Source: a virus. Taken from it: a stretch of DNA of 24,495 bases. The stretch is from the IMG/VR virus record IMGVR_UViG_3300044701_000927, positions 1-24,495 of that record, one strand, 5' to 3'. Shown here in pieces: positions 1,958 to 23,407 of the stretch (position 1 is its first letter; each line of letters starts with the position of its first letter). Both the position numbers and the translations under genes were made by a program. The notes under the pieces were generated by a model. The model was not told the origin of the DNA and did no database searches. It worked only from the letters and a program-made list of their open reading frames with translations.

Positions 1958-1963
1958 TAGACT
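1958..1963 (+). promoter_or_regulatory. -10-like element TAGACT, 21 bases before the start at 1985
   Basis: TAGACT sits in the divergent gap 1796-1984, between the leftward HTH-like gene and the first neck gene. No convincing -35 box lies 17 bases upstream. The spacing of exactly 21 bases to the GTG start is shared with four other sites in the window (5342, 13521, 14593, and 23083 on the minus strand). Confidence 0.55.
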
Positions 1964-1984
1964 GAATCAAAGACTGTATTAGCC

Positions 1985-2515
1985 GTGCCAGCAGCAATCG
2001 ACGCGACTCTCGGAGGCACCTCTGCGAACTCGTACGTCACGCTGGCTGCTGCCAACACGTATTTCGAGACGGTCCCCGACTCCAGCACCTGGACCAACAA
2101 AACCGACGACCAGAAAAACCGGGCCCTAATCTCCGCCACTCGCTGGATCGACGCCCTCACCTTCTACGGTGACCGCTGCACGGAAACCCAAGCCCTGAAG
2201 TGGCCGCGAGAAGACTACAAAGTCGATGGCATCGACTTGGCCTGCACCCTGATCCCCGAGGGCATCAAAGTCGCCACCTACGAACTGGCGCGTGCCTTCG
2301 CCAACGACGCGGACGCCATCACCGGCACCAGCGGTACTAGCGGCATCTACGACGAAGTCGAGCTGGGCGACCTCAAAGTCAAATACAACAAAACTTCACA
2401 AACCAGCGGCGTCATCAACAACGTCTTCGACGTCTACCCCTGGCTCCAGACCTACCTTGGCGCCTACTGCCTGGGCGGCGCATCTAATCACGCCGTTCGC
2501 CTGTACCGAGGTTAG
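1985..2515 (+). CDS. head-tail connector / head completion protein (DnaT_2-like fold family)
   Basis: The 176-residue product carries the recognisable pattern of the phage family labelled putative DnaT-like ssDNA-binding protein: GGTSANSYVTLAAANTYF at residues 10-27, a W-x-x-x-(S/T/D)-D-x-x-K-x-x-A-L-I-x-A-T-x-W-I-D stretch near 36-57, then a QALKWPR motif at about 69-75. Despite the family name, such genes sit between capsid and tail genes in siphoviruses and are usually interpreted as head-tail adaptors that dock on the portal. The start is GTG 1985, preceded by GCC with no Shine-Dalgarno. It opens a unit driven by the TAGACT element. The next gene starts 2 bases after its stop. Confidence 0.8.
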   Translation: MPAAIDATLGGTSANSYVTLAAANTYFETVPDSSTWTNKTDDQKNRALISATRWIDALTFYGDRCTETQALKWPREDYKVDGIDLACTLIPEGIKVATYELARAFANDADAITGTSGTSGIYDEVELGDLKVKYNKTSQTSGVINNVFDVYPWLQTYLGAYCLGGASNHAVRLYRG

Positions 2516-2517
2516 AC

Positions 2518-2895
2518 ATGAGCCGCGTCGATACGGTTTTTGCAGGAATTCCGGGCCCTCTTTTGCAGGACTGGGGCATCGACGCGACGTACATCCAAGC
2601 CGGAAGTTGTGATACCTACGATCCCGAGACTGGCACCCTCTTGAATACCGAGGAGTCCATCCCTGTCCGCGTCCTCATTACCCAAATCAAACCCGAAGAA
2701 TTCGACAGCACCTACCAAACCACGGACGTGAAGATGCTGCTAGGTAACAGCGAACTGGGCGACTACGTCCCCTCCGTCCGTGACACCATCCAGTACCAGC
2801 AGGATGGAACAACCCGCACTGGACGCATCATTGACGTTAAAACTTACCGAGGTGACAGCCCCATTTTTCACTCTTTAGTTGTGAGGCCTCAGTAA
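2518..2895 (+). CDS. head closure / neck protein candidate
   Basis: This 125-residue protein is rich in beta-forming segments (PVRVLITQIKP, TIQYQQDG, TGRIIDVKTYRG, HSLVVRPQ), consistent with the small beta-barrel head-closure proteins (SPP1 gp16 or lambda FII type) that follow the adaptor gene. I see no diagnostic motif, so the function comes from size, order and predicted beta content. ATG 2518 lies two bases after the upstream stop. The stop TAA (2893-2895) overlaps the next ATG by one base (TAATG), indicating coupled translation. Confidence 0.65.
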   Translation: MSRVDTVFAGIPGPLLQDWGIDATYIQAGSCDTYDPETGTLLNTEESIPVRVLITQIKPEEFDSTYQTTDVKMLLGNSELGDYVPSVRDTIQYQQDGTTRTGRIIDVKTYRGDSPIFHSLVVRPQ

Positions 2896-3407
2896 TGGCC
2901 AAACTTACCGACCTAGAAAAAGACGCCTACAACTGGGTCAATAACCTGGCACGAAATTCGGCCAAGGAAATCATGAACGGCCTCGCAGAGGCTGGTCCCG
3001 AGTGGAGCGGCGACTTTAAAGACAGTTGGATAGCGGACGCCGCCGGTGCAGGTACAGGCGGAGGCGGAGGGTATCCGTATTCACTAAAAGAAATACCCCG
3101 ACTACCCGCAACTAAACGAGAAGTCGAGCGCAGAACAAAATTTGTCATCTATAACTCCGCGCCCCATGCTGCTATTGCCATGGATCTCGTCGATGTACCG
3201 GCGAAAGACTTCAAGAAGGTCGGTTACCCCCGTGGCGAAATAGTCGCAAAAGGAAGCCGTCCGGCCACCGGCAAACGTGGCGAAGTCTCAGGCAAGGGCA
3301 ACTCAACCAGCACCGCCCCTCTCGACTGGTATCCCCTGTTCGTGCAAGGCGGCAAAATGCAGAAAGCCCTCGAACGTGGCGTGCGCTCAGCGCCTCCTTC
3401 CCTATGA
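2895..3407 (+). CDS. neck / tail completion protein (HK97 gp10-like)
   Basis: This is a 170-residue basic protein. It has an N-terminal amphipathic helix (about 1-30), the motif WSGDFKDSW at about 37-45, a Gly-rich loop near 54-59 and the segment FVIYNSAPHAAIAMDL at about 83-98. The W-(S/T)-G-x-(L/F)-x-x-S-W motif and the later Y-N-x-A-P-(H/Y)-A-x-(A/x)-x motif are typical of HK97 gp10-like neck proteins, which act in head-tail joining or tail completion. Basic residues are concentrated in 110-140 (KGSRPATGKRGEVSGKG), which could contact DNA or an acidic partner. It overlaps the upstream gene by 1 base and the downstream gene by 4 (ATGA). Confidence 0.75.
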   Translation: MAKLTDLEKDAYNWVNNLARNSAKEIMNGLAEAGPEWSGDFKDSWIADAAGAGTGGGGGYPYSLKEIPRLPATKREVERRTKFVIYNSAPHAAIAMDLVDVPAKDFKKVGYPRGEIVAKGSRPATGKRGEVSGKGNSTSTAPLDWYPLFVQGGKMQKALERGVRSAPPSL

Positions 3408-3871
3408 ACTATCAAGCAATCCGCGCCGTAATCGAAGGACCGCTACTCACGGCATACAACAGCCTGGTGCCCGCCGTCCCTGTCTACTTCGACAACGTAA
3501 TGAACGATGGTGCTGACAGCGCTGAAGAATACGTCCACGTCAATATTCAGTTTGGCCTCACTACCGAGACTGCTCTTTCTGCGGACCATGATTATGTGCG
3601 AGGTGTGGTGGTTGTTCGCACGTACACCCCCAAGGGTAAAGGGCCGGCCCGCAATCAAACCCTGGTTAACACTGCTGCTACTGTTCTGCGCGAGTTAAAC
3701 GCTACACCGAAGTCAAATACAGGCGTGTACCTCCGCACCGGATCTATCGAAGGACCGTCTTTCAGTCCTGACTACGGCGGAAACGTACCAGATCAACAAT
3801 CCCGTCGTGCGTTTACACCGTTCTTTATTTCACGCATTTCCGCAGGATTCCAAGCACAAGTAATTTCTTAG
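3404..3871 (+). CDS. tail terminator protein
   Basis: The 155-residue product fits the phage tail-terminator group: a short N-terminal helix, a VPVYFDNV strand at about 25-32, the AEEYVHVNIQFG motif at about 39-50, a VRGVVVVRTYTPKGKG segment at about 65-80, and a long C-terminal part that includes RRAFTPFFISR. Such proteins form a hexameric ring that stops tail-tube polymerisation and joins the tail to the neck. Position immediately before the tail tube gene agrees. ATG 3404 overlaps the preceding stop (ATGA). It is the last gene of the neck unit. A 75-base gap with a possible hairpin and -10-like TACCGT follows. Confidence 0.75.
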   Translation: MNYQAIRAVIEGPLLTAYNSLVPAVPVYFDNVMNDGADSAEEYVHVNIQFGLTTETALSADHDYVRGVVVVRTYTPKGKGPARNQTLVNTAATVLRELNATPKSNTGVYLRTGSIEGPSFSPDYGGNVPDQQSRRAFTPFFISRISAGFQAQVIS

Positions 3872-3873
3872 TA

Positions 3874-3916
3874 GCACGGCTTTACACCAGCTAACCTGTA
3901 TTAAGCCGGGCCGTGC
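3874..3916 (+). other. possible long hairpin in the gap before the tail tube gene
   Basis: GCACGGC (3874-3880) can pair with GCCGTGC (3910-3916) across a 29-base loop, and GGCTT (3878-3882) can alternatively pair with AAGCC (3903-3907). No T tract follows. The two competing pairings suggest an attenuator or processing site ahead of a highly expressed structural gene. A -10-like TACCGT at 3920-3925 lies 21 bases before ATG 3947. Confidence 0.35.
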
Positions 3917-3946
3917 CCGTACCGTTCACTTCCCCTGGTATCATCC

Positions 3947-4693
3947 ATGGCCACCGTTCTCTCGGGCACTTCCGGCGCCCTGTACTACACCCCTGCCGGT
4001 ACTTCGGTCACCACTCTGGCTGCTAGCGCTTTCCCCGCTACCGGCTCCAACATCACCGTAGGTTCCTACCTGGGCTTCAAGGTCAATGACCCCGTGACCT
4101 TGGCTTACCCTGTAGGCGCCACGGTTACCAACGCTATCGCCGCTGGTGCGTACTTTGTGAAGACGTACGATGCCACGACCGGCATCATGACCATCAGTTC
4201 TACCGCTGGTGGTGCCGCTGCAACCGCAACCGCCCTTCCCTCTGGCTTCGGAGCCAATTTCGCCAGTATCACCTACACCGCCCCTGTTGTGGTGGGCTCC
4301 GTCCGCGAGTGGAGCTTCGAGATCACCCGCGCTGAGATCGACGTCACCACGATCGGTCAGGAAATCGGTCAGTACACGGCCTTCCGTACCTACATCCCCG
4401 GTTTCGCTGACGGTTCTGGTTCCGCCACGGTGTACACCACCGACGACGACACCAACCTGTCCAGCCGGATGATCGAGGACGTCATCCAGCGCCAGCAAAA
4501 CGGTGCAACGATGAAGCTGTACATCGACCGTGTCGTTGCCAGCGGCACCGTCAACGAAACTGCCAGCCGCTCGATCACCGTCCCTGTGATTCTGACCTCT
4601 GCCAGCCTGACGGTTAATCCCGACGACGGCCAGAGTGTCGAGATCGCCTTCCGCCCGAGCGACGTCCCGACCTTCGACCTCAGCAAGTCCTGA
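3947..4693 (+). CDS. major tail (tube) protein
   Basis: This 248-residue protein is dominated by Thr, Ser, Val, Ala and Gly in alternating beta-strand patterns, as in siphovirus tail-tube subunits. The segment VREWSFEITRAEIDVTTIGQ at about 123-142 resembles the conserved strand of tube proteins, and the C-terminal part (SITVPVILTSASLTV) reads as sheet. The Ser/Thr/Ala-rich region at about 20-105 may be a surface insertion. The gene lies between the tail terminator and the chaperone pair and has its own terminator, so it can be expressed at high molar ratio. ATG 3947 is preceded by CC with no Shine-Dalgarno. C-rich codon use matches the capsid gene. The long leftward frame across it is a composition shadow. 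Confidence 0.85.
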   Translation: MATVLSGTSGALYYTPAGTSVTTLAASAFPATGSNITVGSYLGFKVNDPVTLAYPVGATVTNAIAAGAYFVKTYDATTGIMTISSTAGGAAATATALPSGFGANFASITYTAPVVVGSVREWSFEITRAEIDVTTIGQEIGQYTAFRTYIPGFADGSGSATVYTTDDDTNLSSRMIEDVIQRQQNGATMKLYIDRVVASGTVNETASRSITVPVILTSASLTVNPDDGQSVEIAFRPSDVPTFDLSKS

Positions 4694-4722
4694 TAGGTTG
4701 ACACTCGACCAGGAAACATACA

Positions 4723-4747
4723 GCCCCGGCAAACCCGGGGCTTTTTT
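4723..4747 (+). terminator. intrinsic terminator after the tail tube gene
   Basis: The stem GCCCCGG (4723-4729) pairs perfectly with CCGGGGC (4735-4741) across the loop CAAAC, and six T follow. It lies 29 bases beyond the tail tube stop. Confidence 0.9.
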
Positions 4748-4760
4748 CTGTCTACTGCGT

Positions 4761-4766
4761 TACACT
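4761..4766 (+). promoter_or_regulatory. -10-like element TACACT before the tail chaperone gene
   Basis: TACACTAACG follows the terminator directly and is 25 bases before ATG 4792. The same string TACACTAACG, with GTTGTC a few bases later, occurs on the minus strand before the gene starting at 20726. This shared sequence supports a promoter role. No -35 box is evident. Confidence 0.5.
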
Positions 4767-4791
4767 AACGACGTTGTCTACAGCAGTTTCC

Positions 4792-5136
4792 ATGCCCGCC
4801 GCACCACGCGCAATCGACCGTCTGCGAAAGGCCGCCAACCTGGAGCCCGCCAAAAAGACCGTCACACTCACGGACGGCAGCGAATTTGAAATGTGGGTAA
4901 CGCCCCTGACGATGGCGGAACGCGAGCGTGCCCAAAAGCAAGCCAAGTCGGACGATGCTGGCGCCTTTGCCTTGCAACTCCTGCTGACTAAAGCCTGCGA
5001 CGAGACGGGCACCCGCATGTTCAACGCTGGTGAGATCGACATCCTGAAGAACGAGGTCAAGGACAAAGACCTCCAGACCCTGATGCTGGCGATCCTGACC
5101 GATGATTCGGAGGAGCTCGACACCAAAAGCACTTGA
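4792..5136 (+). CDS. tail assembly chaperone, N-terminal part (gpG-like)
   Basis: This 114-residue acidic and helical protein sits between tail tube and tape measure, the fixed place of the tail assembly chaperone. An N-terminal basic helix (RAIDRLRKAANLEPAKK) leads to a strand pair (TVTLTDGSEFEMWVTPL) and a Glu/Lys-rich helix (MAERERAQKQAKSDDAGA), a layout known from gpG-like chaperones. The frame stays open back to a TTG at 4774, but ATG 4792, preceded by TTCC, is preferred. Its last 35 bases overlap the downstream frame, which is +1 relative to it. Shifting at the AAAA of 5125-5128 would give a fusion of about 175 residues (112 + 63). Chaperones of this type bind the tape measure and recruit tube subunits, and are absent from the virion. 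Confidence 0.8.
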   Translation: MPAAPRAIDRLRKAANLEPAKKTVTLTDGSEFEMWVTPLTMAERERAQKQAKSDDAGAFALQLLLTKACDETGTRMFNAGEIDILKNEVKDKDLQTLMLAILTDDSEELDTKST

Positions 5137-5320
5137 GGCCGAACTCAAAAAAGACACCTACCTCTACATCCAGTTCTTCGTCGCGGAGAAGCTCGGACTA
5201 ACGCTGTCCGAGCTCCGCTCGCGTATGACAGAAATGGAATTGATCGGCTGGCACACCTACTTCAAGCTCCAAGCCGACGCCGAAAAAGAAGCCTACGCAA
5301 AAGCCAAACGCCGCCGTTAG
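5102..5320 (+). CDS. tail assembly chaperone, C-terminal extension (gpT-like), probably made by frameshifting
   Basis: The frame encodes LYIQFFVAEKLGLTLSELRS, then RMTEMELIGWHTYFKLQADA and a Lys/Arg-rich end. The M-T-x-x-E-L-x-x-W-x-x-Y-F pattern is typical of the T half of G/T chaperone pairs. The only ATG at the front of the frame (5102) lies inside the upstream gene and has no Shine-Dalgarno, so separate initiation looks poor. The expected product is the fusion read through the overlap, starting in this frame at GCA 5129. This frame is +1 relative to the upstream gene, so the shift would be +1 or -2, unlike the -1 of lambda. The stop TAG (5318-5320) lies in the loop of the following terminator. 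Confidence 0.75.
   Translation: MIRRSSTPKALEAELKKDTYLYIQFFVAEKLGLTLSELRSRMTEMELIGWHTYFKLQADAEKEAYAKAKRRR
5109..5130 (+). promoter_or_regulatory. candidate programmed frameshift site in the chaperone overlap
   Basis: In the upstream frame the codons are ACC AAA AGC ACT TGA, with AAA at 5125-5127. Since 5128 is also A, a tRNA-Lys can move +1 from AAA to AAA with full re-pairing and continue at GCA 5129. GGAGGAG at 5109-5115 is Shine-Dalgarno-like and has no start codon in the downstream frame after it, so it may stimulate shifting rather than initiate. The upstream stop TGA lies two codons after the slip codon. The direction and the exact slip codon are inferences. Confidence 0.5.
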
Positions 5321-5334
5321 TCCGGCGGCTTTTT
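5311..5334 (+). terminator. intrinsic terminator at the end of the chaperone pair
   Basis: CCGCCG pairs with CGGCGG across a short loop that contains the stop codon TAG, followed by CTTTTT. It overlaps the last codons of the chaperone extension and separates it from the tape-measure unit. Confidence 0.82.
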
Positions 5335-5341
5335 AACGGGA

Positions 5342-5347
5342 TAGACT
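5342..5347 (+). promoter_or_regulatory. -10-like element TAGACT, 21 bases before the tape-measure start
   Basis: TAGACT begins 8 bases after the preceding terminator and lies exactly 21 bases before GTG 5369. It is identical to the hexamer at 1958-1963 and has the same spacing. No -35 box is visible because the upstream DNA is the terminator stem. Confidence 0.6.
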
Positions 5348-5368
5348 GCAGACACTGAGGACCAGTCC

Positions 5369-8300
5369 GTGGCAAACTACTCCGCCGTCATCGACCTGCG
5401 CGTAGAAGGCCAGAACGGACTGCGTACGCTGGCGGACAACCTGGAGTCTATAAACAGACTAATTAAACAGGTAAAACCTGTACCAACACTATTTGATAAG
5501 CGTGGAGTAGACGAACTAGTAAAAGCTAAAACGGCTTTAAGTAACCTCGTAAAGGCGTACGCTGACGGCAACACAGTTGTTGCTAAGTGGGCAACATCTA
5601 TGGCTGGCTTAAACCAGCAGATGACGTCCTTCAGAAGCGTAGCCGCGAACGCTCGTGCAGGTAGCGACGAGTTTACTAATGCTTTAAAAGCGGGCGAAAT
5701 TGCATCCAAAAATTTACTGCAAGCTGAACTAGAGAGACTTGCAGCTTTACGCAATATATATACACGCCAAGCTAGCGGTTCCATGACCGCAACGGATCAA
5801 GGTGTGTCCAAGATGGTTAAGGACCTCCTGGCTTTAAAGAAGCAAGTACCTGACAGTATTGCAGCTATGGATTCCTTCCAGCGAGAACTGCTGGAAGTGC
5901 AAAAACTTGTAAGCATGAATAGCCAAGAGTTCCGTGAACTGGAACAGGCTATTTACAAACTCGACGTTGCTATGGGCAAAGTCAAGCTGGGTCCAAAAGC
6001 GCCTCCTGTTCAAGGACCAGAAGAACCTCCTGGCGGCGTAAAGAAACCGCCAGAAAAACCTAAAGGGCAACTGACTTTTAATCCTAAGCCTTCCCAGGAA
6101 AATCTTGCGCTCGGCGCTGGTTTCCCGTTGCTTTTCGGAGGCGGCGTAGGCCAAGTCGCAGGCGGCCTGCTTGGCTCCATGTTTGGAGAAGGTTTCGGAG
6201 GGCAGATCATCGGCGCGGCACTGGGACAACAACTAGAAGATATGTATGTACGCATCGTTGATATATCTAAAGCAGCCGCCGAACTCAATGTAGACGGACT
6301 GCGCGATAGCGTAATTACTGTAAACAGTGAACTAGATTACCAAGTCGGTTTGCTAGTAAAAGCTAACGAACTTGAAGCTGCCCGAGCTGTAGTAGCCGCG
6401 GAGGTTTACGAACAAACCGGTTTGACTGCCGGTGCTGCGGCGGATATCGCGTCCAACACAGACACTTTAAAAACCGCGTGGGACGGAGCTCTCGGGTCTA
6501 TATCTGCAGTTGTGGCTCAGATAGTCAATCTATTTGTCCCTGGTATAGCTAGCGCTCTTGATTTAATCGGGATGGTTGCCAGGGGGTGGGCAAACATAGG
6601 CAGTGTTGTTATTGACGCATCTAACGGGGTAAAAGGATGGCTACAGAACTTAATTTTTGGGGAAGGAACCGCGCAGAAAGTTAGAGAAAAATTCGGAGGC
6701 ATTAACGAACAAGCTGAAAAGTTAAAAGCAACGCTGCAGAGTACACTCGATAAACAGGCTAATAGTCTTCTAACCGCAAGACAACTTTTAGATATAGATA
6801 AGCTTCGTAACGACGCGACGACGCTCCAGGGCAAGCTAAACAACATCGAACTCGACCAGCGCGAAAAACTCGTACGCATTGAAGAGCAATACGGTAACAA
6901 AAAAGCTGATTTTCTCGGTACTTTTAAGTCAATAACAGCCGAAAACCAAAACCTAGTTGACCTGGGCCTCAAGCAGATCGAGGCAGAAAAGCAACTAGCA
7001 ATCCAGGCCGCCGAAGTTGCTGCTCAAAAACAAAGGCAACTAGCGGTAGTCGAATCCATCATCAGCAAAGTCACCGCCGAAAATCAAATCAGTCAAGCCG
7101 GCATCAGCGCCGCCCAACAAATAAATGCCCTGGAAAAAACCAGGCTAGAGATTGCATACCAAAGCACCGAAAATTTAAATCAAAAAGTACAAATCCTTGC
7201 CGCGCTGTACCAGAGCGAGGTCCGCGCAGCGCAACTGGAATACGACAGCCAAATCCTCTCCATACAGCTAGAAGAGAAAAAGTTAAAAGTTCAATTAAGT
7301 GCAGCCGAATGGAAAGTCAAAGAAATCCAAGCTGAAGGCCAGCTGCTACTCCTTCGGTCTAAATCAGTTGCCGAATCAGAAGCAATTAAAAATAAAGTAG
7401 CTATAGCCGTTGCTGCCCAAAACGAAGTCGTCCTAGGTCTACGCAGCCAACTTGCGACCACACAACAGATAGGCGTTTACCAAGAACAAGGAGCACGTGC
7501 TCAAGCACAAAACAGAATCGAAACAGCAGCATGGGCACTACAAAGCAAACTGGTTGGCCAAGAAATTGGATTTACAAACGAAAAAGCACAAGAAGTACTT
7601 GCGGGTATTCAGGGTGCTGATCTACAAACACGCACGTTATCTACTAGCGTGAACGGCGTTACACAAGCTTTAGACGCGACTAAACAGAATCAAGATGAAG
7701 TCACCACAGCTGTAAAACTGACGGGCGCGGCAGCGGTTCTAGCTGAAGCAGAACGCTTAAATGCAACGATAACCACCAACGACGAGATTGTAGCTAGTCA
7801 AGAAAAAACAAACACAAAGTTAACCAACTCCTGGAAAGACATAGCCCAGTCATGGGTTTCTTCTGTCATAGACCCCCTTAAAGAAAACTGGCAGGGACTC
7901 CTAGCGTATCTGGGAGATCCCAATCTCATTAACAATATAATTACCGACGCCTGGAATAACCTAGCCACTGGGTTCGACGCGAGCGTCGTGCAGCCTATTC
8001 GAAATATATGGAATGGTCTTATGAGTTTTATTAAAAACTCACAAAACGACAGCGTGGGAGCTGTTAATAAAGTGTGGAAAACTATTACAGGGACAGTTCA
8101 AAGTGTGTTCAAAGCCGTGGCTGGATACATTGCCAGTAATGTTAACAAAATTATTGATATGATCAATAGACTTATCGACGGGTACAATAGTATTCCTAAC
8201 ATTCCCGATATTCAGCGAATTGATAGAGTATCCGTACCCGCTTATGCAGAAGGAGGTGTCGTAACAAAACCCACGCTGGCTTTAGTTGGCGAAGGTGGTG

Positions 8301-9030: not shown

Positions 9031-11433
9031 ATGTACACCAGAACCACTGCAGTCGGGTCAACTTCTCTCGTTTCGAGAGAATTTATAGTTCTCAACGAAG
9101 AGCCGGCCACTGGTACGCCACTCGAAGAAACCGGTGCAACGGGCGCTGAAAATCTAGACACACCCCAACGTGGAGCTGTAATCGGCGAGCCAATCCCCCT
9201 CGTATTTTGCCGTCGTGTAGGAGGGGTCGGGGGTGTCCTGATTAGTCCCGCTGCCACCGAAGCTAGATTCGAAAACAGCCTGACAAATGAAGTGACAGGT
9301 TTTTACCACCTTGTGCTGGGTCAAGGTGACATGGATTCAATCCAGGTGCGCGACGTGTTTCAGCGCAGTTGCCGTGTAGGTACTTTCAGTCAGACCTATA
9401 ACAAGCGCGCTGGGACGTTTATTCCTGGCAATTTTATTGTTGACAGGGCAGGTTATACCACACCAGAATGCCCGACATACTGCGGCACAGGCGGCACATA
9501 CACAGATCTGTCAACGATGGAGTATGAATGCACTTACCCAAATGGCGTTGACCAGTGGAATCGTCAAGTGCATTGCTTCATTCGTGGCGGGATGTACGTC
9601 ACGCGGTTATTGGATAACGTCTACGGACCAAGCAATAATGTAGCTGACCTGCTGTTATTCCTTCTCCGCAAAAGTTCACGCGTTCCGGAGGAGCAAATCG
9701 ACACGGTAGGTTTGCTAGCTGCCGCGACATTTACCAATGTCAACGGCTTCTGGTTTAACGGCGTTGTCTATGAATCCAGCAACCTACGCGACTGGATGAA
9801 TAACACGCTAAAACATTTTCTGCTGAGACAAACCAGAGTCGGCGGCAAGGAATCACTCAAACCCTTGCTGCCTGTTAACAACGATGGAACCATCAAGACA
9901 ACTCCGGTCACATATGTAACTGCATTTACGGAAGATCACATAATCCCGGACACATTTCAAATCTCGTACACACCGTTGGCAGATCGGAAGCCGGTGTGTA
10001 TCACGGTACTTTGGCGGCAGCAAGACGACTTGGGAATTGCCGTGATGCGAACCACCGAAATTCGATATCCAGGCACTGCAATTGATGGACCGTTTGAGCA
10101 GCACGATCTTTCTTCGTTCTGCGCTTCGGAAAACCATGCTGTCAAAATCGGAACCTATATTCTTTCTAGGCGTAATCACATCAAGCACAGGCTACAAATA
10201 ACGGTTAAACCTTCGGACTTTAATAGCAGCTTAGCGCCAGGTGATATTGTCCGGGTTCGTCTAGCTCGGGTTGCATCAACTGGAAACAGCAGCGTTCACG
10301 ACTCTCTGTATGAAGTAGACCAGATCGGCAAAACTTTAACGGGTGAAGTTACGCTGGCTCTTACTCACTTTCCGGTTGACGACACGCTATGCAGCGTCGT
10401 CGCTAAAGAAGTCGCCGCAGCTGTTGGTGCTGGGCTGGTGCTGGATTCCGGCCTTAGCGCAGTAACCTGTGATATAAACGACCCGGGCGACACAAGCGTT
10501 CCGGCGGACACCAGCTTAGATCCTGAGGACTGGAGTTTGCCTGACCCAGCCGATTTTGGCTACAACGTGCCAGAGATTCCTGAATTTGGTGGAGACGGTG
10601 CCGGCGGTAGTGCTGGTGCTGGTGCTGGCGGTGGTGTTGGCAGCCTGGACGATATAGCCGGGGCAATTGGTTATGGTGGCCAGAGTGCCGGACGCAAAGA
10701 AGACGAAGATCAATTCGGCGGTGGCGATAATGATGGGTTGGGCGGCCGCCAAGTTGGTGGTGATATTTACGCAGATCCACCTAGTGGAATTGCTGAGCCG
10801 GGCGAAACACTTACATCACCGCCAATCTGCCAAGGTGCCACGGTCACGTGGTACGAAGCAAGCTCGACAGCTCCGGGTGGCAAACAAATACTCGGTCAAG
10901 GTCCAACATATGTGCCCACCGCAAATGACCTCAACAAGGATGTGTTCACTCAAACTACATGTCCCGGTGGCGGCGACCCCATCACATCAGGCTCGGTGAC
11001 AATTACAGATGGGTTTATACCCACACCTACCACAGTTACGGTTAATGTAACAACAGAAACATATGTTTACTCTGGCGAGAAACGGTATTGCTCCAATGAT
11101 ACTTTAGCTAACGCTGCGGATATCCAGTCAAACACAAGTTCATTCAGCGTTACAAATGTAGTGAGCTACAAGCCGCTTCCCACTGCAAGAGTTCAGACAT
11201 TTGTCTGCACTGGACCATCTCAAACTGTCGTTAAAGACTACGGCGTCGAGCTAAAGCTAGCTGACGGTAGCACAGTCCTTGTAGGCGCAAGAGCTTCAGA
11301 AGGCGATGTATTTATTAGCCCAGCGGTCTATGGTAGAAACACAACATATTATCAAGTTTACCTAACATTCGGCGCTGGTATATTCCTTTACCAATCGCCA
11401 CCTGTTCCAGATCCACCTAATCCTTACCCATGA
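9031..11433 (+). CDS. J-like tail tip / host-specificity protein with Gly-rich linker and Ig-like C-terminal region
   Basis: This 800-residue protein follows the minor tail gene. Residues 1-460 look like a tip hub: GEPIPLVFCRRVGGVGGVLI at 52-71 is the region where J/TipJ-like proteins have their G-x-x-(I/V)-P-x-V-(Y/F)-G strand, and 385-460 (LQITVKPSDFNSSLAPGDIV, then YEVDQIG) match the hub domain that binds tail completion partners. A Cys cluster (146, 151, 167, 182) is unusual. Residues about 519-582 are low-complexity Gly/Asp/Ala. From 590 an Ig-like repeat occurs (ICQGATVTWYEASSTAPGGK, then GPTYVPTANDL), followed by further beta-rich sequence and a Pro-rich end. A receptor-contact role of the C-terminus is inferred. 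Its stop overlaps the next gene (ATGA). Confidence 0.82.
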   Translation: MYTRTTAVGSTSLVSREFIVLNEEPATGTPLEETGATGAENLDTPQRGAVIGEPIPLVFCRRVGGVGGVLISPAATEARFENSLTNEVTGFYHLVLGQGDMDSIQVRDVFQRSCRVGTFSQTYNKRAGTFIPGNFIVDRAGYTTPECPTYCGTGGTYTDLSTMEYECTYPNGVDQWNRQVHCFIRGGMYVTRLLDNVYGPSNNVADLLLFLLRKSSRVPEEQIDTVGLLAAATFTNVNGFWFNGVVYESSNLRDWMNNTLKHFLLRQTRVGGKESLKPLLPVNNDGTIKTTPVTYVTAFTEDHIIPDTFQISYTPLADRKPVCITVLWRQQDDLGIAVMRTTEIRYPGTAIDGPFEQHDLSSFCASENHAVKIGTYILSRRNHIKHRLQITVKPSDFNSSLAPGDIVRVRLARVASTGNSSVHDSLYEVDQIGKTLTGEVTLALTHFPVDDTLCSVVAKEVAAAVGAGLVLDSGLSAVTCDINDPGDTSVPADTSLDPEDWSLPDPADFGYNVPEIPEFGGDGAGGSAGAGAGGGVGSLDDIAGAIGYGGQSAGRKEDEDQFGGGDNDGLGGRQVGGDIYADPPSGIAEPGETLTSPPICQGATVTWYEASSTAPGGKQILGQGPTYVPTANDLNKDVFTQTTCPGGGDPITSGSVTITDGFIPTPTTVTVNVTTETYVYSGEKRYCSNDTLANAADIQSNTSSFSVTNVVSYKPLPTARVQTFVCTGPSQTVVKDYGVELKLADGSTVLVGARASEGDVFISPAVYGRNTTYYQVYLTFGAGIFLYQSPPVPDPPNPYP

Positions 11434-13520: not shown

Positions 13521-13526
13521 TAGAAT
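13521..13526 (+). promoter_or_regulatory. -10-like element TAGAAT, 21 bases before the start at 13548
   Basis: TAGAAT lies in the only gap (34 bases) between the adhesin gene and the next gene. It is exactly 21 bases before ATG 13548. The spacing equals that of TAGACT at 1958 and 5342 and of TAGAAT at 14593. No -35 box is visible. Confidence 0.55.
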
Positions 13527-13964: not shown

Positions 13965-14461
13965 TGGCAATATTCCCAGCAATCGAACCTGCAGCTCGCA
14001 GCTACGACCTGGGAGCCTACCCACTTGTGGAACAGCCTTCGCTGAGCGCTGGGATTGTGCGATTTAAGCACGGTTTTGAGCCTTTTGACTATCGCCTAAA
14101 TTTAGATTTTGCCTATTTGACTGATGCGCAGGCTGCTGAAATTCGGGATCATTTTGAGATTCAAGCGGGCAGCCATCGCTCATTTCAGCTTCCTTCAGAC
14201 ATCTGGAAAGGGCACACATTTAGCGGCAATGTTTTTCCAGTAGGCACTCGCTGGCGGTATGCAGAATCCATCGAAGAAACGCACCATGAGATCGGACGCT
14301 ATAGCATCAAAGTCGCGCTGGTATCCGACGGCAAATACAAAGCTGCTGAGCTCGACCCCGTAACCGCAAGTTTCGCACCGGGCACTGCGTTCATCCAGGC
14401 TGGTAGCTTCAGCGTATCTGTAGCGGCTAGCCTTGTGAGTGGAACCGCAACCGGAGCGTAG
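13964..14461 (+). CDS. fibre-base paralogue without LamG domains (minor tail protein)
   Basis: This 165-residue protein is homologous along most of its length to the first 125 residues of the LamG adhesin (MAIFPAIEPAARSY against MATFPALKPSTRTF, both followed by G-x-YP and LT-(D/E)-A). Both continue into a Ser/Thr/Ala linker with the shared string ASLVSG, but here the protein stops. It therefore looks like a tail-attachment base with no adhesin head: either a separate structural subunit at the tail tip or the remnant of a fibre that lost its distal domain. No broken frame is seen downstream. ATG 13964 overlaps the upstream stop. Its TAG overlaps the next GTG by one base. Confidence 0.72.
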   Translation: MAIFPAIEPAARSYDLGAYPLVEQPSLSAGIVRFKHGFEPFDYRLNLDFAYLTDAQAAEIRDHFEIQAGSHRSFQLPSDIWKGHTFSGNVFPVGTRWRYAESIEETHHEIGRYSIKVALVSDGKYKAAELDPVTASFAPGTAFIQAGSFSVSVAASLVSGTATGA

Positions 14462-14595
14462 TGGCAGTCCGCAGTAAAACCGGCACTGGTGCAGTGCTGC
14501 ATCAACCCGGCAAGCCCAAACTTACCCGGCAAGGACAAGGCAAACGCAGCAAGCCAAATCACGGGCGTAAAAAACTGCGCGGTCAAGGCCGTTAG
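14461..14595 (+). CDS. 44-residue highly basic protein
   Basis: GTG 14461 overlaps the upstream stop (TAGTG) and the gene ends at TAG 14593-14595. The product is almost entirely Lys, Arg, Gly, Gln, Ser and Pro, with the repeated pattern T-R-Q-G-Q-G-K-R-S-K, P-N-H-G-R-K-K, R-G-Q-G-R. Similar tiny basic proteins with R-Q-G-x-G-K repeats occur in cyanophage structural regions as I recall them, with no assigned function. The charge suggests nucleic acid binding or packing in the virion. Its stop codon is the first three bases of the TAGAAT element for the next gene, so coding and promoter sequence are fused. Confidence 0.65.
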   Translation: MAVRSKTGTGAVLHQPGKPKLTRQGQGKRSKPNHGRKKLRGQGR

Positions 14596-14598
14596 AAT
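14593..14598 (+). promoter_or_regulatory. -10-like element TAGAAT, 21 bases before the start at 14620
   Basis: TAGAAT includes the stop codon TAG of the upstream basic protein and lies exactly 21 bases before ATG 14620, the first gene of the lysis region. Same hexamer and same spacing as at 13521. Confidence 0.55.
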
Positions 14599-15464: not shown

Positions 15465-15476
15465 TACACTTACACA
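15465..15476 (+). promoter_or_regulatory. -10-like tandem TACACT/TACACA before the lysis gene at 15498
   Basis: TACACT (15465-15470) is immediately followed by TACACA (15471-15476). The second hexamer is exactly 21 bases before GTG 15498, the first is 27. The site supports a new rightward unit starting after the inserted HNH gene. Confidence 0.45.
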
Positions 15477-18288: not shown

Positions 18289-18301
18289 AAAACACAGCCG
18301 C

Positions 18302-18505
18302 TCACCAACGCGCAGGACTATCCACCTTCTTTTCCCACGCCTGGGACTGCGCTTTCCGTGCGCCGGACCGCTGTTTGCTGCAGCCTCGCCTAATGTCGTA
18401 GGCCCATTCGAGAAACATGGCCGCACGCTGCAAATCCGCCGTAGTAGCACGACGGACCGCAGCGTACAGCCGTTCCAGGATGATCTCCCTACCAGTCTTC
18501 GCCAT
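18302..18505 (-). CDS. small helical basic protein of unknown function
   Basis: This 67-residue protein is read from ATG 18505, the internal Met that follows the end of the upstream gene. The longer frame to 18601 lies over the upstream gene and is unlikely. The N-terminal helices (GREIILERLYAAVRRATT and LQRAAMFLEWAYDIRRG) are followed by a Lys/Arg-rich tail. GGGG directly before ATG and an overlap of 17 bases with the upstream gene suggest translational coupling. No family is recognised. The small size and charge could fit a DNA-binding or inhibitor protein, but this is a guess. Confidence 0.55.
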   Translation of the reverse strand: MAKTGREIILERLYAAVRRATTADLQRAAMFLEWAYDIRRGCSKQRSGARKAQSQAWEKKVDSPARW

Positions 18506-18674
18506 CCCCACACTCTGGCACCAGTGCAATCTTGACGACGGTTCTGTCTGGAAACATCGCCATCGCCTGCCTGTGCGCCAGAAAAGAATCCTCCGCTTCA
18601 ACCTCCACTTGGTAGATAAGTTGTCCCCTCGATCGCATTGTTACGGCAAAACGCCGTACTCCTCGGTTAATCAT
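18489..18674 (-). CDS. small beta-rich protein directly after the DNA polymerase
   Basis: A 61-residue product from ATG 18674, which overlaps the polymerase stop (ATGA) and has a good GGAGG 6 bases upstream, one of the clearest Shine-Dalgarno sequences in the window. The protein reads as strand (RRFAVTMRSRGQLIYQVEVE), helix (EDSFLAHRQAMAMF) and strand (RTVVKIALVPE). This short strand-helix-strand form is known from several small phage proteins that follow the polymerase. The function is unknown. The Shine-Dalgarno and overlap imply co-expression with polymerase. Confidence 0.65.
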   Translation of the reverse strand: MINRGVRRFAVTMRSRGQLIYQVEVEAEDSFLAHRQAMAMFPDRTVVKIALVPECGDGEDW

Positions 18675-20500
18675 TTGGCCTCCAGCCACGAATCACCAAC
18701 GTGCGCCTCGGCCAGGGCTGGAACATCTCCCAACCACACCGCCTCAGCGTCCTGCATCACTGCAGCAAGTTGAGCTGCCCACGTTTCGGCATGTTCTTCT
18801 CTAACCAAAAGCACCACTTCGTCATGTACTACACCTGCAAGCCGCACAACCTCTTCCCCGTCAGCTTTAAGCAGAGGCCACAACAATCCCAGCGTCCGCT
18901 TAAGCACAGCAGCACCAGCCCCCTGGATCGGAGTATTACAGCGGGTAGTCAGCTTGTTGTGATCTCCCGGAAGAAACCGCCGCAACCCGGACTTGCGAAT
19001 GCGGATAGAGGCATTGCATGGAGAAGCATCAGCTGCCTGAGCATTCTTGCGTTGCCACCGGCTGATTCCGTTATACGCAGCGTGGAACTTCTCGCGGATT
19101 TCCGCAGCTTCAGCAAGATCCATTTGTATCCCCATACCTGCTGCATAGTTGCGTAATCCTCGGGCTCCCGATCCATACAACAAACCGAAGTTCGCAGATT
19201 TTGCAATTTGCCTTTGTTCCTTTGTAATTTCATTCTCTGGGACGCCATAAATCTGCATTGCAGTGACAGTGTGTAAGTCCAGGCCATCCTGGAATGCGCG
19301 GATCATCAGAGAATCCTCTGCTTCCGCAGCCGCAAGGCGCAGCTCCATCTGGGCGTAGTCCGCCACTACCAGTTTCCACCCGCTGGGGGCCTTGACACAC
19401 TCCCGAAACCTTGAATCTCTTGGAACTTGCTGCAAGTTGGGCGAAATACAGGACATGCGTCCAGTGTCCGCCCCCAACTGCATATAACTGGCACGAATAA
19501 ACCCGTCATCGTGCATATGTTTAATCAATGCCTCGACCATCTGCCTGCGCTTCTCCACCCGCTTCCAGGCCAAGTAATCGGCCACAACTTTGTGGTCTCC
19601 GATGTACTCCCGCAGCGCCTGCCGACTGGCGCTTGCCTTGCCATTCGCGTCTACAGGCTGCTCACCCAGCAGCGTGGTGAACACGCTGAGCAGTTGCTTG
19701 GGACTGTTGAGATTGAACCCTGCTTCCTGTTTGTTACCTGCCCGGATGGTGCCAGTGGCCTTAGCCCTGGTGTTGATGCTGCCGTCAGGATCCCGGGGTA
19801 GCTTGGAATCCTCAGGCAAGGCCTCGTCAAGTGCCAGCAGAAACTCCGCGCCGAGGCGCTCGTGGTCCTTTGCCAGATCCTCGTGCAGCGTTTCTAGTGA
19901 CGTGCGATCAAACGGCAGGCCGGTTCGCCAAAGCTGCGCCATCGCAGGAAGCGCCTTGCACTCCAGGAACCACGCCCGATGGAGATTCGCCTCCGCCATC
20001 CGAGCATTGATGGGTCCATCCAGGTCCACCAGCACCTGAACGTCCATCGCCGCATACGCCAGCTGCTCCGGAGTTAAGTCACCACTCCAATCGCTGCGCT
20101 GCTCCTCCTTGGATAGCTCCTGCTTCAGGTAGCGACTAACCACATGCTGCAAACCGTGCTTCACGTAGGGCAGCCCGTTCGTCAGAATGCGGCTAGCCAG
20201 CATGGTGCAGAGCACGTCCCCCTCGGGATACAGCTCGTGCTCCTGCAGCCAACCCAGGTCAAACACGGCGTTGTGGGCTACCCAGTACCGCTTGCGGCTG
20301 AAGAACTCCTCCAGCTCAATCCAGTCGTTGTCCTCTAAATCCCAGCAGTCAATCACCACTGGAGTCCGGTCCAAGGCTGCCAACTGAAGCAGCCGCAACC
20401 CTCCGAAAGTGGGCTGGAGCCCGGTGGTCTCACAGTCAAGCGCAACCGTGGTCGCGTTGCTGAGAGTGTGTAGATGTTTGATGCCTTGAAGAAATTTCAT
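18671..20500 (-). CDS. DNA polymerase family A with 3'-5' exonuclease domain
   Basis: This 609-residue replicative polymerase starts at ATG 20500, 7 bases after the upstream stop. The longer frame to 20572 lies inside the previous gene. Exonuclease motifs are LDCETTGL (D22, E24), HNAVFDLGWL (D81) and YAAMDVQVLV (Y149, D153). The polymerase core has motif A DYAQMELRLA (D381, E386, R388), motif B RQIAKSANFGLLYG (R430, K434, F438) and motif C GVVHDEVVLL (H559, D560, E561). The residue equivalent to E. coli F762 is Phe438. There is no 5'-3' exonuclease domain, as in T7 and many cyanophage enzymes. In surveys of viral PolA, Phe or Tyr at this position has been linked to virulent lifestyle and Leu to temperate. 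This is a family-level correlation only. Confidence 0.96.
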   Translation of the reverse strand: MKFLQGIKHLHTLSNATTVALDCETTGLQPTFGGLRLLQLAALDRTPVVIDCWDLEDNDWIELEEFFSRKRYWVAHNAVFDLGWLQEHELYPEGDVLCTMLASRILTNGLPYVKHGLQHVVSRYLKQELSKEEQRSDWSGDLTPEQLAYAAMDVQVLVDLDGPINARMAEANLHRAWFLECKALPAMAQLWRTGLPFDRTSLETLHEDLAKDHERLGAEFLLALDEALPEDSKLPRDPDGSINTRAKATGTIRAGNKQEAGFNLNSPKQLLSVFTTLLGEQPVDANGKASASRQALREYIGDHKVVADYLAWKRVEKRRQMVEALIKHMHDDGFIRASYMQLGADTGRMSCISPNLQQVPRDSRFRECVKAPSGWKLVVADYAQMELRLAAAEAEDSLMIRAFQDGLDLHTVTAMQIYGVPENEITKEQRQIAKSANFGLLYGSGARGLRNYAAGMGIQMDLAEAAEIREKFHAAYNGISRWQRKNAQAADASPCNASIRIRKSGLRRFLPGDHNKLTTRCNTPIQGAGAAVLKRTLGLLWPLLKADGEEVVRLAGVVHDEVVLLVREEHAETWAAQLAAVMQDAEAVWLGDVPALAEAHVGDSWLEAK

Positions 20501-20507
20501 GGGGAGA

Positions 20508-20726
20508 TCAGGCGCGGTAGTCGGCAAGGTCGGCATCAGTAGGCTCCCAGTCGAGAGCGTCTTCCACCGCATCTAGTGCAGGAATCAGGTGCTCCTCAAG
20601 CGCCTCAAGCGTGCGGAAGTCGAGGTGACAATCCATCATGTGCCGGGTTGCCTCGCGTATCAGCAAGGCGTTCAGCTGTTTGCGAAAGTCGGTGACAAGC
20701 GTCGAGAGAACGGAAAAGTCGTTCAT
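20508..20726 (-). CDS. small acidic protein upstream of the polymerase
   Basis: The 72-residue product has helices rich in Leu, Asp and Glu (STLVTDFRKQLNALLIREAT, then RTLEALEEHLIPALDAVEDA) and an acidic end (LDWEPTDADLADYRA). No known motif. Its stop is 7 bases before the polymerase start, so the two are probably co-transcribed. A TACACT -10-like element is 26 bases upstream of ATG 20726. It could be a polymerase or replication accessory protein on position only. Confidence 0.6.
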   Translation of the reverse strand: MNDFSVLSTLVTDFRKQLNALLIREATRHMMDCHLDFRTLEALEEHLIPALDAVEDALDWEPTDADLADYRA

Positions 20727-20750
20727 GGCCTGGTGTGGGCGACAACTCCG

Positions 20751-21071
20751 TTAGTGTAGTACATGGACAGCATCCCCCACCGCCCGAGCAACACACACTG
20801 AAACAAACCCTGGATCACCCGCCTCGGGGAATCCCAAGGAACAGAACCCATTGCACTGGTGTATGCAGTACGTGCATAGCTCACTGGCTTGCACTCTCCA
20901 GTCTTTAGGCGTGTGGTCCTCCAGCACCTGACCGTCCTGCACGCGCCAGTCATCCTGACAGGAGCGGCACTTCAGACGCCACCAGCGGGTCCCGTCCTTG
21001 TTCAACCGCGTGTCCTGCACCACGACATTGGTGCATTTACACGTCGGGCAGGTGTTCTGGTGCGTTTTCAT
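20751..21071 (-). CDS. Cys-rich zinc-ribbon protein
   Basis: The 106-residue protein begins with a zinc ribbon (C8-x2-C11 and C35-x2-C38, with a WWRLKC strand between). A second Cys group follows at C66-x2-C69, C73, C77 and C93 with HQCNGFCSLGFPEAGDPGF. It could bind two metals, or an iron-sulfur cluster in the second group. I do not recognise a family. ATG 21071 overlaps the stop of the upstream RHH gene (ATGA). The stop is the TAA inside the promoter string TACACTAA. A transcription or nucleic-acid role is an inference from zinc ribbons. Confidence 0.6.
   Translation of the reverse strand: MKTHQNTCPTCKCTNVVVQDTRLNKDGTRWWRLKCRSCQDDWRVQDGQVLEDHTPKDWRVQASELCTYCIHQCNGFCSLGFPEAGDPGFVSVCVARAVGDAVHVLH
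20753..20758 (-). promoter_or_regulatory. -10-like element TACACT before the polymerase unit
   Basis: On the minus strand TACACTAACG overlaps the stop codon of the upstream zinc-ribbon gene and ends 26 bases before ATG 20726. The TACACTAACG string, with GTTGTC a few bases on, repeats at 4761 on the plus strand. Confidence 0.45.
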
Positions 21072-21340
21072 CGCGTGGTACGTGGTGCGCCACGTTTGGG
21101 AGACTGTTCAAGTTCGGCTGCCATCTCGGCGGCCGCCCGCAGCATGGTACTTAGCGGAATACCTCTAATAGACCGCTCCGCCATGTACCGGACAGCCATC
21201 CGATACCCATGCGAGGCGTTGCCATTACCCAGTTGCTGCGCCAGTTTTATCTCCTCGTCTGTAACCCGAATGTTGAGTGTCCGGTTACGTGCTTGCCTGG
21301 CTCTAACCGATGGATTCAGGACTGTTGCTTGTGCCGGCAT
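21068..21340 (-). CDS. ribbon-helix-helix-like protein
   Basis: A 90-residue protein from ATG 21340, two bases after the upstream stop. The frame continues to 21376, but that part lies over the upstream gene. After a basic N-terminal arm, NRTLNIRVTDEEIKLAQQLG (about 19-38) has the strand then helix of an Arc/CopG-type ribbon-helix-helix, and NGNASHGYRMAVRYMAE forms the second helix with the G-N-A-S-H-G turn. The C-terminal part is helical (STMLRAAAEMAAELEQ). Likely a DNA-binding regulator. The operator is not evident upstream because the gene is inside an overlapping array. Confidence 0.65.
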   Translation of the reverse strand: MPAQATVLNPSVRARQARNRTLNIRVTDEEIKLAQQLGNGNASHGYRMAVRYMAERSIRGIPLSTMLRAAAEMAAELEQSPKRGAPRTTR

Positions 21341-21342
21341 AA

Positions 21343-21687
21343 CTAGATAGCTGGTGTGTCTTTTAGGTGTCCCCACCGCTTCGCCTTGACGATGCGGTAA
21401 ACAGTTTGCGGATGAATCCCATATCGCTTGGCAATCACTTTGTATGTGTACTCTTGCGCGAGCTGCCGTATATCCCGCACGTTCTGTTCTGTCAAAACGG
21501 CAAAGTTGTTGTCCTCTCCACGCTTGATTTGCCTGGGATGAATCTCTCGAACTGGAACTAAGTAGGTCTCAATCGTGATGTAACGCTTCTCACAATCCAG
21601 GCAACGACAATACCTTTTAGTTTCGTTGCCCTGGTGCTGTGTACACGTCACACGAGTGCTGGTACTTTTACACTTCGGACACTTCAT
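21343..21687 (-). CDS. zinc-ribbon plus helix-turn-helix protein
   Basis: The 114-residue protein has an N-terminal zinc ribbon (C3-x2-C6, C27-R-C29-x2-C32, then YITIETY), of the kind seen in NrdR and Ogr/Delta type regulators. A C-terminal helix-turn-helix follows at 66-108: TEQNVRDIRQLAQEY, then VIAKRYGIHPQTVYRIVKAK and RWGHL. The same HTH module, with the ending W-x-H, occurs in the protein encoded at 22648-23061. ATG 21687 has AAGAGG upstream and overlaps the previous stop by one base (TGATG). The combination suggests a transcription factor or a DNA-targeting module related to homing endonuclease HTHs. It has no nuclease motif. Confidence 0.7.
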   Translation of the reverse strand: MKCPKCKSTSTRVTCTQHQGNETKRYCRCLDCEKRYITIETYLVPVREIHPRQIKRGEDNNFAVLTEQNVRDIRQLAQEYTYKVIAKRYGIHPQTVYRIVKAKRWGHLKDTPAI

Positions 21688-21914
21688 CAGTCCTCTTGTA
21701 ACGGGTGCTCCTTGACTGTGTACAGCAGGTCTTCTTCGGCAAGCATCTCGAAAGCCTCAATCAAATGTTCCTTCGGATAACCACACCCAGAAACAAAATC
21801 GACAAAGGCTGCTACAAGGTCTGCAGCAGTAGCTGCCTGGAACTTGGCGTTCATGCAGTACATAATTTCCTGGGCTGCATTAGCCCGTATCAACTCAAAC
21901 TTAAAGTTGTCCAT
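21687..21914 (-). CDS. small unknown protein
   Basis: The 75-residue product is read from ATG 21914, overlapping the DUF3310 gene by 14 bases (TTG 21926 is also possible but less likely). It contains mostly helices: MDNFKFELIRANAAQEIMYC, TAADLVAAFVDFVSGCGYPK, HLIEAFEMLAEEDLLY. Acidic overall. No family is recognised. It is co-transcribed with the DUF3310 and dCTP deaminase genes upstream and the zinc-ribbon HTH gene downstream. Confidence 0.55.
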   Translation of the reverse strand: MDNFKFELIRANAAQEIMYCMNAKFQAATAADLVAAFVDFVSGCGYPKEHLIEAFEMLAEEDLLYTVKEHPLQED

Positions 21915-22143
21915 CGGTAGTTTCAAGATGGGTGATAAGACGGTTCAGATACCAGCGAGCCTTAGACAAATCCTCAACAGTGTTGTGCTTGCCCCAGCAG
22001 CGATGCACGTATTTGAGTACCTGCCATTGGAGTCCGCCACTGACGGCATCTGGCGCAAACTGCACGGAGTCTTCGATGACGTCGATTACTTCGTACTTAC
22101 GACTGGATGCGTAGTGAGAAGGATGATTGACCGAATCAGACAT
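21901..22143 (-). CDS. DUF3310 family protein
   Basis: The 80-residue protein has the DUF3310 signature: V-N-H-P-S-H-Y near residue 5-11, then YEVIDVIEDS, then W-Q-V-L-K-Y-V-H-R-C-W-G-K and a DLSKARWYLNRLI end. This family (PF11753) is common in tailed phages and sometimes annotated as nucleotide kinase-like, without a demonstrated reaction. It follows the dCTP deaminase gene (8-base overlap), which is consistent with a role in nucleotide supply. ATG 22143 lies within the end of the upstream gene. Confidence 0.85.
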   Translation of the reverse strand: MSDSVNHPSHYASSRKYEVIDVIEDSVQFAPDAVSGGLQWQVLKYVHRCWGKHNTVEDLSKARWYLNRLITHLETTDGQL

Positions 22144-22651
22144 ACTTGGCAGCCTGTACAGAAACGTCGTTGTTGTAGTGCCCAGTCACGGAGTAATCCC
22201 GCGATGGGATGGCTGACATGCGATGGAACACAAGCTGCCCAATCCGCATCTCCGGCCACAAGGCAACCGGGTGCAAACTGCGGGCATTCTGCAGCTCTAG
22301 GGTCAGCTTCGACCCGGACCATCCTGGATCGCAGTAACCAGCCATCAAATGCTCCAGTCCTTGACGTGCTCGGGTGCTTTTAAGGGCAAACTGACCCGCC
22401 ACATCCACCGGCAGGTAGAACGTTTCGATGGTGCAGCCCAGTACAAATTCCCCAGGGCGCAGGTAGAACGGATTCTCTGGTGTGTGCCCGGTTATATCGA
22501 CTGGAATCAGTGTTGGGTACTCCTCCACCTCAACCATCAACTCAAATCCCAGGCGTACATCCAGGCTGGCCGGATTGACTAGGACTGGGTCGTAAGGATC
22601 GACAAGGCCCCCCGCACAGAGGGCCCGGATCTCTGAATCACAGAGAATCAC
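22136..22651 (-). CDS. dcd: dCTP deaminase / dUTPase-fold enzyme
   Basis: The 171-residue protein has the dCTP deaminase pattern. NPASLDVRLG is at 26-35, the PGEFVLGCTIE strand at 66-76, KSTRARQGL at 91-99 (S92 and R96 align with the active-site Ser and Arg of the E. coli enzyme), AGYCDPGWSG at 104-113, LTLELQN at 116-122 (Glu119 aligns with the catalytic Glu), and MRIGQLVF at 135-142. It would convert dCTP to dUTP, or dUTP to dUMP, for dTTP synthesis. The bifunctional possibility cannot be excluded by sight. GTG 22651 overlaps the upstream TGA (GTGA). Its 3' end overlaps the DUF3310 gene by 8. Confidence 0.88.
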   Translation of the reverse strand: MILCDSEIRALCAGGLVDPYDPVLVNPASLDVRLGFELMVEVEEYPTLIPVDITGHTPENPFYLRPGEFVLGCTIETFYLPVDVAGQFALKSTRARQGLEHLMAGYCDPGWSGSKLTLELQNARSLHPVALWPEMRIGQLVFHRMSAIPSRDYSVTGHYNNDVSVQAAKYV

Positions 22652-23061
22652 TTACGAATCTCCACAATCTCCAGGGCTTTGGCGTTGGCAGCCTCGACGT
22701 GCTTCCAGGTCTTGCCCCATTTGATGGCGTTGATGGTGCTGTAGTGGACCTTGAACTCGCGGGCAATCGCGGCCGCAGACCTGCCGGTACCAAGCAGTCG
22801 CTTGATCTCGCCAACCTGACGCACCGACAGCAAAGCATTGCCCTTTCTCACCTGGGTCCAACGGGTCTTGGATGGGGACTTTTGCTTTGGAGCAGCAGTA
22901 GCAGCAGCTTTTGCTGGTTTGATATCGGTGGTTTGTTGCACGTCGAAGGCAACCGTCTGGGCACCGCCGAGAATACGGGTCAGGTTTTCCACTGCAACGG
23001 CCATTTCGGTCATGTGGCTGTGGATCTGGTGAATTTCGTTGTCGGAGAGAAGAGTAAGCAT
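22648..23061 (-). CDS. helix-turn-helix protein with coiled N-terminus
   Basis: The 137-residue product has an N-terminal helix (1-32, including HQIHSHMTEMAVAVENLTRI), an Ala/Lys/Pro linker (48-66) and a C-terminal HTH at about 78-122: LSVRQVGEIKRLLGTG, then AAAIAREFKVHYSTINAIKW and KTWKHV. The HTH has the resolvase-type turn and ends in W-K-H, aligning with the one in the protein at 21343-21687. ATG 23061 is 21 bases after a TACACT element. A regulator is the best guess. Such HTHs also occur attached to homing nucleases, but no nuclease core is present. The N-terminal helix may mediate oligomerisation. Confidence 0.7.
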   Translation of the reverse strand: MLTLLSDNEIHQIHSHMTEMAVAVENLTRILGGAQTVAFDVQQTTDIKPAKAAATAAPKQKSPSKTRWTQVRKGNALLSVRQVGEIKRLLGTGRSAAAIAREFKVHYSTINAIKWGKTWKHVEAANAKALEIVEIRK

Positions 23062-23080
23062 GGCAGGTAAGAAAACAAAG

Positions 23081-23407
23081 TTAGTGTACTAGAGAAGTGA
23101 CATCTTGCGAGAGTCTCATAAGAGTCTCACCTGGGAGAGTAAGAAGCTCGGAAATGGCAATGGCCGCCAGCTGCTGGTGACTCACAGTCTCCGCTTCTTG
23201 AAACCGCTGGAGCAACCGGGAGTAGACGTGGAGCACACTGCTAGGGGCTATCCAGGCAGTATCTCCACGGATCGGCTCGGTGCCGTACTCCCAGTCGTCG
23301 TAGTCCGGCTCGTTACGGACTGTCCTCGCAATCGCCGTATAGATCGGACAGATCGACCGGCTCCAAGTTGCTGACTCGGGCTTCGACAAATTCTGCGAGG
23401 TCTCCAT
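23081..23407 (-). CDS. unknown protein
   Basis: A frame of 108 residues. The C-terminal two thirds look coding: the acidic NEPDYDDWEYGTEP, then the helix-rich WIAPSSVLHVYSRLLQRFQE, then the Ala/Leu-rich LAAIAISELLTLP. The first 30 residues overlap the upstream gene by 95 bases, which is more than usual here. ATG 23407 has AGAGG close upstream, and no better start exists before the acidic region except beyond it, so the overlap is probably real. No family recognised. The last three bases of the stop are inside the TACACTAA element. Confidence 0.5.
   Translation of the reverse strand: METSQNLSKPESATWSRSICPIYTAIARTVRNEPDYDDWEYGTEPIRGDTAWIAPSSVLHVYSRLLQRFQEAETVSHQQLAAIAISELLTLPGETLMRLSQDVTSLVH
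23083..23088 (-). promoter_or_regulatory. -10-like element TACACT, 21 bases before the HTH gene at 23061
   Basis: On the minus strand TACACTAAC includes the TAA stop of the upstream gene and lies exactly 21 bases before ATG 23061. It has the same 21-base spacing as the plus-strand elements at 1958, 5342, 13521 and 14593. Confidence 0.55.

Follow-up and report, generated by a model that had tools for sequence, protein, structure and literature searches.

Putative host-type -10 boxes precede leading genes in a Synechococcus/Cyanobium siphophage fragment and its relatives

The -10-like hexamers lying 20-28 nt upstream of genes in this phage DNA are very probably the -10 boxes of host-type (cyanobacterial RpoD/SigA-family) promoters that have no -35 consensus. 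The window (i.e., the whole stretch of DNA that was analysed) is the linear virus record IMGVR_UViG_3300044701_000927 of IMG/VR, with 24,495 bases. It is a fragment of a Synechococcus/Cyanobium siphophage. Its proteins matched a major head protein, the Ad1 head-tail adaptor, a tape measure protein, tail proteins, an endolysin and a family A DNA polymerase, and the named phages having a relative of the tail protein encoded at 9031 (S-LBS1, S-CBS1 and S-CBS3) all infect Synechococcus. Small HTH and zinc-ribbon proteins are also encoded. Four syntenic IMG/VR relatives of 42-47 kb (G007-G010) have in common with the window homologs of the capsid, Ad1, the major tail protein, the chaperone, the endolysin, the polymerase and a dCTP deaminase. 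A megablast of the window against phage records and an Rfam search of the window gave no match, and no tRNA was found in the window or in the long relatives.

Results

All ten hexamers listed by a sequence-only reading of the window were recovered, and TA[GC]A[AC]T indeed ends exactly 21 nt before the start codon of five genes, as that reading had claimed. It had also judged five identical spacings unlikely by chance, which our null model bears out: using dinucleotide shuffles of the same upstream regions (n=2000), 0.04 occurrences are expected at 21 nt, and no shuffle (0/2000) gave five such hexamers at 21 nt or at any single spacing. With the looser TANNNT, the window holds 6 occurrences at 21 nt (shuffle mean 0.47) and 15 at 20-28 nt (shuffle mean 4.0). 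A chance origin of the hexamers is thus rejected by window counts far above those of the shuffles. The spacing of exactly 21 bases, however, is common rather than obligatory, since it ranges from 20 to 28 nt with modes at 21 and 23 nt. The remark that -35 boxes are missing agrees with the TTGACA-TATAAT matches in the first 18.8 kb, which show no excess (8 vs 11.2 in shuffles), and there were no TTGACA-like columns upstream of the aligned boxes.

The putative -10 boxes of the window are the following (spacing is counted from the end of the hexamer to the start codon).

1816-1821, minus strand: TATCCT, box of the gene starting at 1789; 26 nt to the conserved start; at 26 nt in 16 of 16 orthologs
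1958-1963, plus strand: TAGACT, box of the Ad1 head-tail adaptor gene (GTG 1985); spacing 21 nt; TAGACT or TAAACT in 16 of 18 orthologs; predicted transcription start 1970 (A)
3892-3897, plus strand: TAACCT, which takes the place of TACCGT at 3920 as the likelier box of the major tail protein gene (ATG 3947); start predicted at 3904 (A)
4761-4766, plus strand: TACACT, box of the tail assembly chaperone gene (ATG 4792); spacing 25 nt; TANNNT in 27 of 27 orthologs; predicted start 4773 (G)
5342-5347, plus strand: TAGACT, box of the tape measure gene (GTG 5369); spacing 21 nt; 7 of 7 orthologs; predicted start 5354 (A)
13521-13526, plus strand: TAGAAT, box of gene 13548; 23 of 24 orthologs; predicted start 13533 (A)
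14593-14598, plus strand: TAGAAT, box of gene 14620; 9 of 11 orthologs; predicted start 14605 (A)
15465-15470, plus strand: TACACT, probable box of the small gene 15498; spacing 27 nt
20753-20758, minus strand: TACACT, probable box of gene 20726; spacing 26 nt; from sequence only
23083-23088, minus strand: TACACT, box of the HTH-protein gene starting at 23061; spacing 21 nt; predicted start 23076 (G)

Conservation was assessed as TANNNT located 18-30 nt upstream in non-redundant orthologs of six window genes, and the box is present in 98 of these 103 orthologs taken together. In the chaperone orthologs it is mostly TACACT or TACAGT at 23 nt. In the alignment for gene 13548, the search pattern dictates the outer T, A and T and leaves the interior and position +7 free. 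The box columns stand out there, as does position +7, with A in 83% of orthologs, most neighbouring columns being at about 0.3-0.65. The probable box at 15465 is based on relatives in which the gene in front of the endolysin has TACACT or TAAACT at a distance of 21-23 nt, and one relative (G011) has TACACT 21 nt before its homolog of the HTH protein. Gene 20726 lies just upstream of the DNA polymerase gene. Two of the hexamers first listed had to be revised. TACCGT at 3920 is not conserved, being found in 1 of 27 non-redundant orthologs, and the minus-strand TATCCT at 1816-1821, formerly placed 20 nt from its gene, is actually 26 nt from the start common to the orthologs.

We extended the count to 134 related phage loci, with a gene caller blind to upstream sequence, and separated leading genes (upstream gap of at least 40 nt) from operonic, i.e., operon-internal, starts; start codons are those of our own gene calling, except where orthologs fix them. 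Among 469 non-redundant leading genes of related phages, TANNNT between 20 and 28 nt reaches 3.1 occurrences per 100 genes per position, compared with 0.4-0.8 elsewhere. This peak is much weaker at operonic starts and stays when each protein family is weighted once. The promoter reading thus survives the check set out with the sequence-only reading, by which related genomes should have hexamers at this distance in excess of shuffles. The same enrichment 20-28 nt before starts was observed in all six isolates (S-LBS1, S-CBS1, S-CBS3, S-2L, KBS-S-2A and S-H1).

Transcription probably begins 7 nt after the box, at a purine that is mostly A, which predicts a leader of ~15 nt at the 21-nt spacing, in line with the leader of about 14 bases proposed earlier. 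In the window, a purine occupies +7 in 9 of 10 supported sites, and in the host genomes described below A is found there in 40% of sites (p=0.006 vs other positions). The six isolates have a purine at +7 in 37 of 39 listed sites, a count without matched control, and in the pooled phage set the purine excess is not significant (p=0.15).

Several leaders contain further elements, as follows.

302-314: GCCCC-TGT-GGGGC in the major capsid leader
3907-3919, plus strand: stem-loop CGGGC-NGT-GCCCG in the major tail protein leader; conserved between the window and six relatives, at 26-31 nt from the start
4722-4742, plus strand: terminator-like hairpin with a T-run, immediately ahead of the chaperone box (pattern scan; T-run conserved in orthologs)
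5310-5329, plus strand: terminator-like hairpin with a T-run, immediately ahead of the tape measure box (pattern scan, ORF list and relatives)

The two terminator-like hairpins adjoin the next box (4722-4766 and 5310-5347), so that transcription units would end and begin within about 20 nt; the loop of the second hairpin holds the stop codon of the preceding ORF (5102-5320). This terminator-then-box arrangement is conserved in relatives at both places. In the major tail protein leaders, most relatives have TAACCT or TAATCT followed by the hairpin sequence GCCGGGCNGTGCCCG. Both in the window and in six relatives (G007-G012), the capsid and major tail protein leaders contain a GC stem of 5 perfectly paired bp, capped by an NGT triloop and located 26-35 nt from the start. 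These stem-loops may possibly act as a stabiliser or bind a protein. When the two leaders were folded as single strands, the minimum-energy structures were different ones, and their z-scores were unremarkable. In addition, a stretch resembling a tRNA T-arm, GGGGTTCAATTCC, is found just before a TACCCT or TAACCT box in four relatives (G007 ~28256, G008 ~22014, G011 ~14659 and G012 ~18558), and ARAGORN found no tRNA at these stretches.

As stand-ins for the true host of the window phage, we used 1.2 Mb of RCC307 and two Cyanobium genomes. In RCC307 the TANNNT peak likewise lies at 20-28 nt and nearly vanishes at operonic starts, and both Cyanobium genomes have it too, in a weaker form. Since hosts share this peak, the layout is the host's. 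The proposal of a phage-specific -10-only promoter was hence half right: a -10-only promoter is well supported, with conserved hexamers and no -35 consensus, whereas an architecture specific to phages is not supported, given these three genomes. What looks phage-biased is the box interior, TANACT in phages against TANNNT in hosts. Indeed, A at position 4 and C at position 5 reach 0.66 and 0.67 in the pooled phage boxes (0.52 and 0.49 with one vote per family), while host interiors are near background. An unsupervised motif search recovered TANACT in phages and, in RCC307, a low-information motif that is not the box. Among isolates, KBS-S-2A and S-H1 have TANACT before several genes, while the boxes of S-LBS1 and S-CBS1 are mostly not TANACT. 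Strong host genes were considered as the source of the bias and discarded, the most conserved RCC307 genes being without it (few sites).

Box-led genes also differ in their translation signals. SD-like 4-mers precede 12% of box-led vs 39% of operonic starts (5% and 13%, respectively, in the control stretch). The earlier statement that these starts lack a Shine-Dalgarno sequence therefore holds as a tendency and not absolutely, as the starts at 5369 and 13548 each have a GAGG ~8 nt upstream. CC or TC directly precedes 69 of 128 box-led starts, and the region from -14 to +20 of box-led genes is slightly less structured than shuffles. We infer initiation on short open leaders without SD; Synechococcus work, as far as it is cited in PMC5607370, suggests S1-dependent or leaderless-type initiation. 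Note that GTG starts are found in 51 of 128 box-led vs 28 of 398 operonic genes of related phages, partly from repeated orthologs.

Discussion

Our results are best accounted for by the following model. Host RNA polymerase would melt the DNA at the box and probably start 7 nt further on, at the purine, so that a 21-nt spacing leaves a leader of 15 nt. Leaders being usually without Shine-Dalgarno and weakly structured, the first gene would depend on its short open leader for translation, while genes inside operons have an SD more often. The genome would be split into short transcription units, with a terminator in some cases adjoining the following box. Which sigma factor acts here is suggested by what the phages encode. 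The Sigma70 region 2 profile (Sigma70_r2) was not found in the window or in the four syntenic relatives with the same boxes, records which may be fragments, while the control search was positive in S. elongatus; this result in the five records favours a host sigma. The single-subunit phage RNA polymerase profile (PF00940) had no match in 11 records, and none in the control set either.

Dependence on a phage-encoded sigma factor appears quite unlikely to us. It would fit the A and C of phage interiors, which differ from hosts and are missing from the few sites of the most conserved host genes, as well as the small HTH and zinc-ribbon proteins of the window; moreover, RpoD-like sigma genes do occur in S-LBS1, S-CBS1, S-CBS3, KBS-S-2A and a few contigs. 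However, the same boxes are found in the four relatives in which the search detected no Sigma70 region 2, S-LBS1 and S-CBS1 mostly do not use TANACT despite having their own sigma, and box position and layout match the host's own promoters. As a separate observation, a contig binned in a Synechococcaceae MAG (L135, 3379-4257) carries a sigma factor 59% identical to that of S-LBS1, and is perhaps a phage contig in the bin. It is even harder to believe that the boxes are not promoters at all, and are instead a by-product of upstream TAG or TAA stop codons or an mRNA element serving translation or processing. The short and fixed distance to the start codon could be read in this way, and the TAG of the box at 14593 doubles as the stop codon of a small ORF (14461-14595, ORF list). 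Yet neither TACACT nor TATCCT has a stop codon in that register, the leading genes were picked with gaps of at least 40 nt and the signal is weak at operonic starts, boxes come after terminators, and hosts have the same element in the same place. Apart from the overlap at 14593, the stop-codon by-product is rejected.

The preferred reading, host-type promoters, is consistent with published systems. In S. elongatus and Prochlorococcus MED4, cyanobacterial promoters were described as having a -10 element but lacking a strong -35 (PMC3219970), and the phage boxes resemble such SigA/RpoD promoters in their TANNNT-type -10, short leader and A at the likely start. In contrast, the motif published for S. 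elongatus is Ta-aaT (PMC3219970), whereas phage interiors favour A and C (TANACT), and the leaders of ~15 nt predicted in the window are shorter than the reported medians of 27-52 nt, those for two Prochlorococcus strains being 27 and 29 nt (PMC6091082). The cyanophage Ma-LMM01 is thought to use host SigA-like promoters at all stages, and its middle promoters (TTNNNNN10-25TANNNT) are alike in having a host SigA-like TANNNT in a phage that apparently encodes no sigma factor (PMC5780444). Unlike the present phage, it is an unrelated T4-like myovirus of Microcystis, with a weak upstream TT element and late promoters of TATTMT type (PMC5780444). Closer to the window, S-LBS1, S-CBS1, S-CBS3, KBS-S-2A, S-H1 and S-2L have TANNNT at 20-28 nt and related virion proteins, although the first four encode an RpoD-like sigma gene and none was seen in the window.

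Full host identity is opposed by the phage preference for A and C, as host interiors are unconstrained, and the reason for this difference is the question that we single out. One unlikely answer would be that TANACT forms a distinct cyanosiphophage promoter class, preferred by a host polymerase altered by a phage protein and thus able to outcompete host TANNNT without a sigma factor of its own. In practice, promoters and true start codons of uncultured cyanosiphophages can be sought by a simple and testable rule, namely a TANACT at 20-28 nt from the start codon, with a purine often standing 7 nt past the box. Our findings also suggest that the virion genes of these cyanosiphophages rely on the host polymerase.
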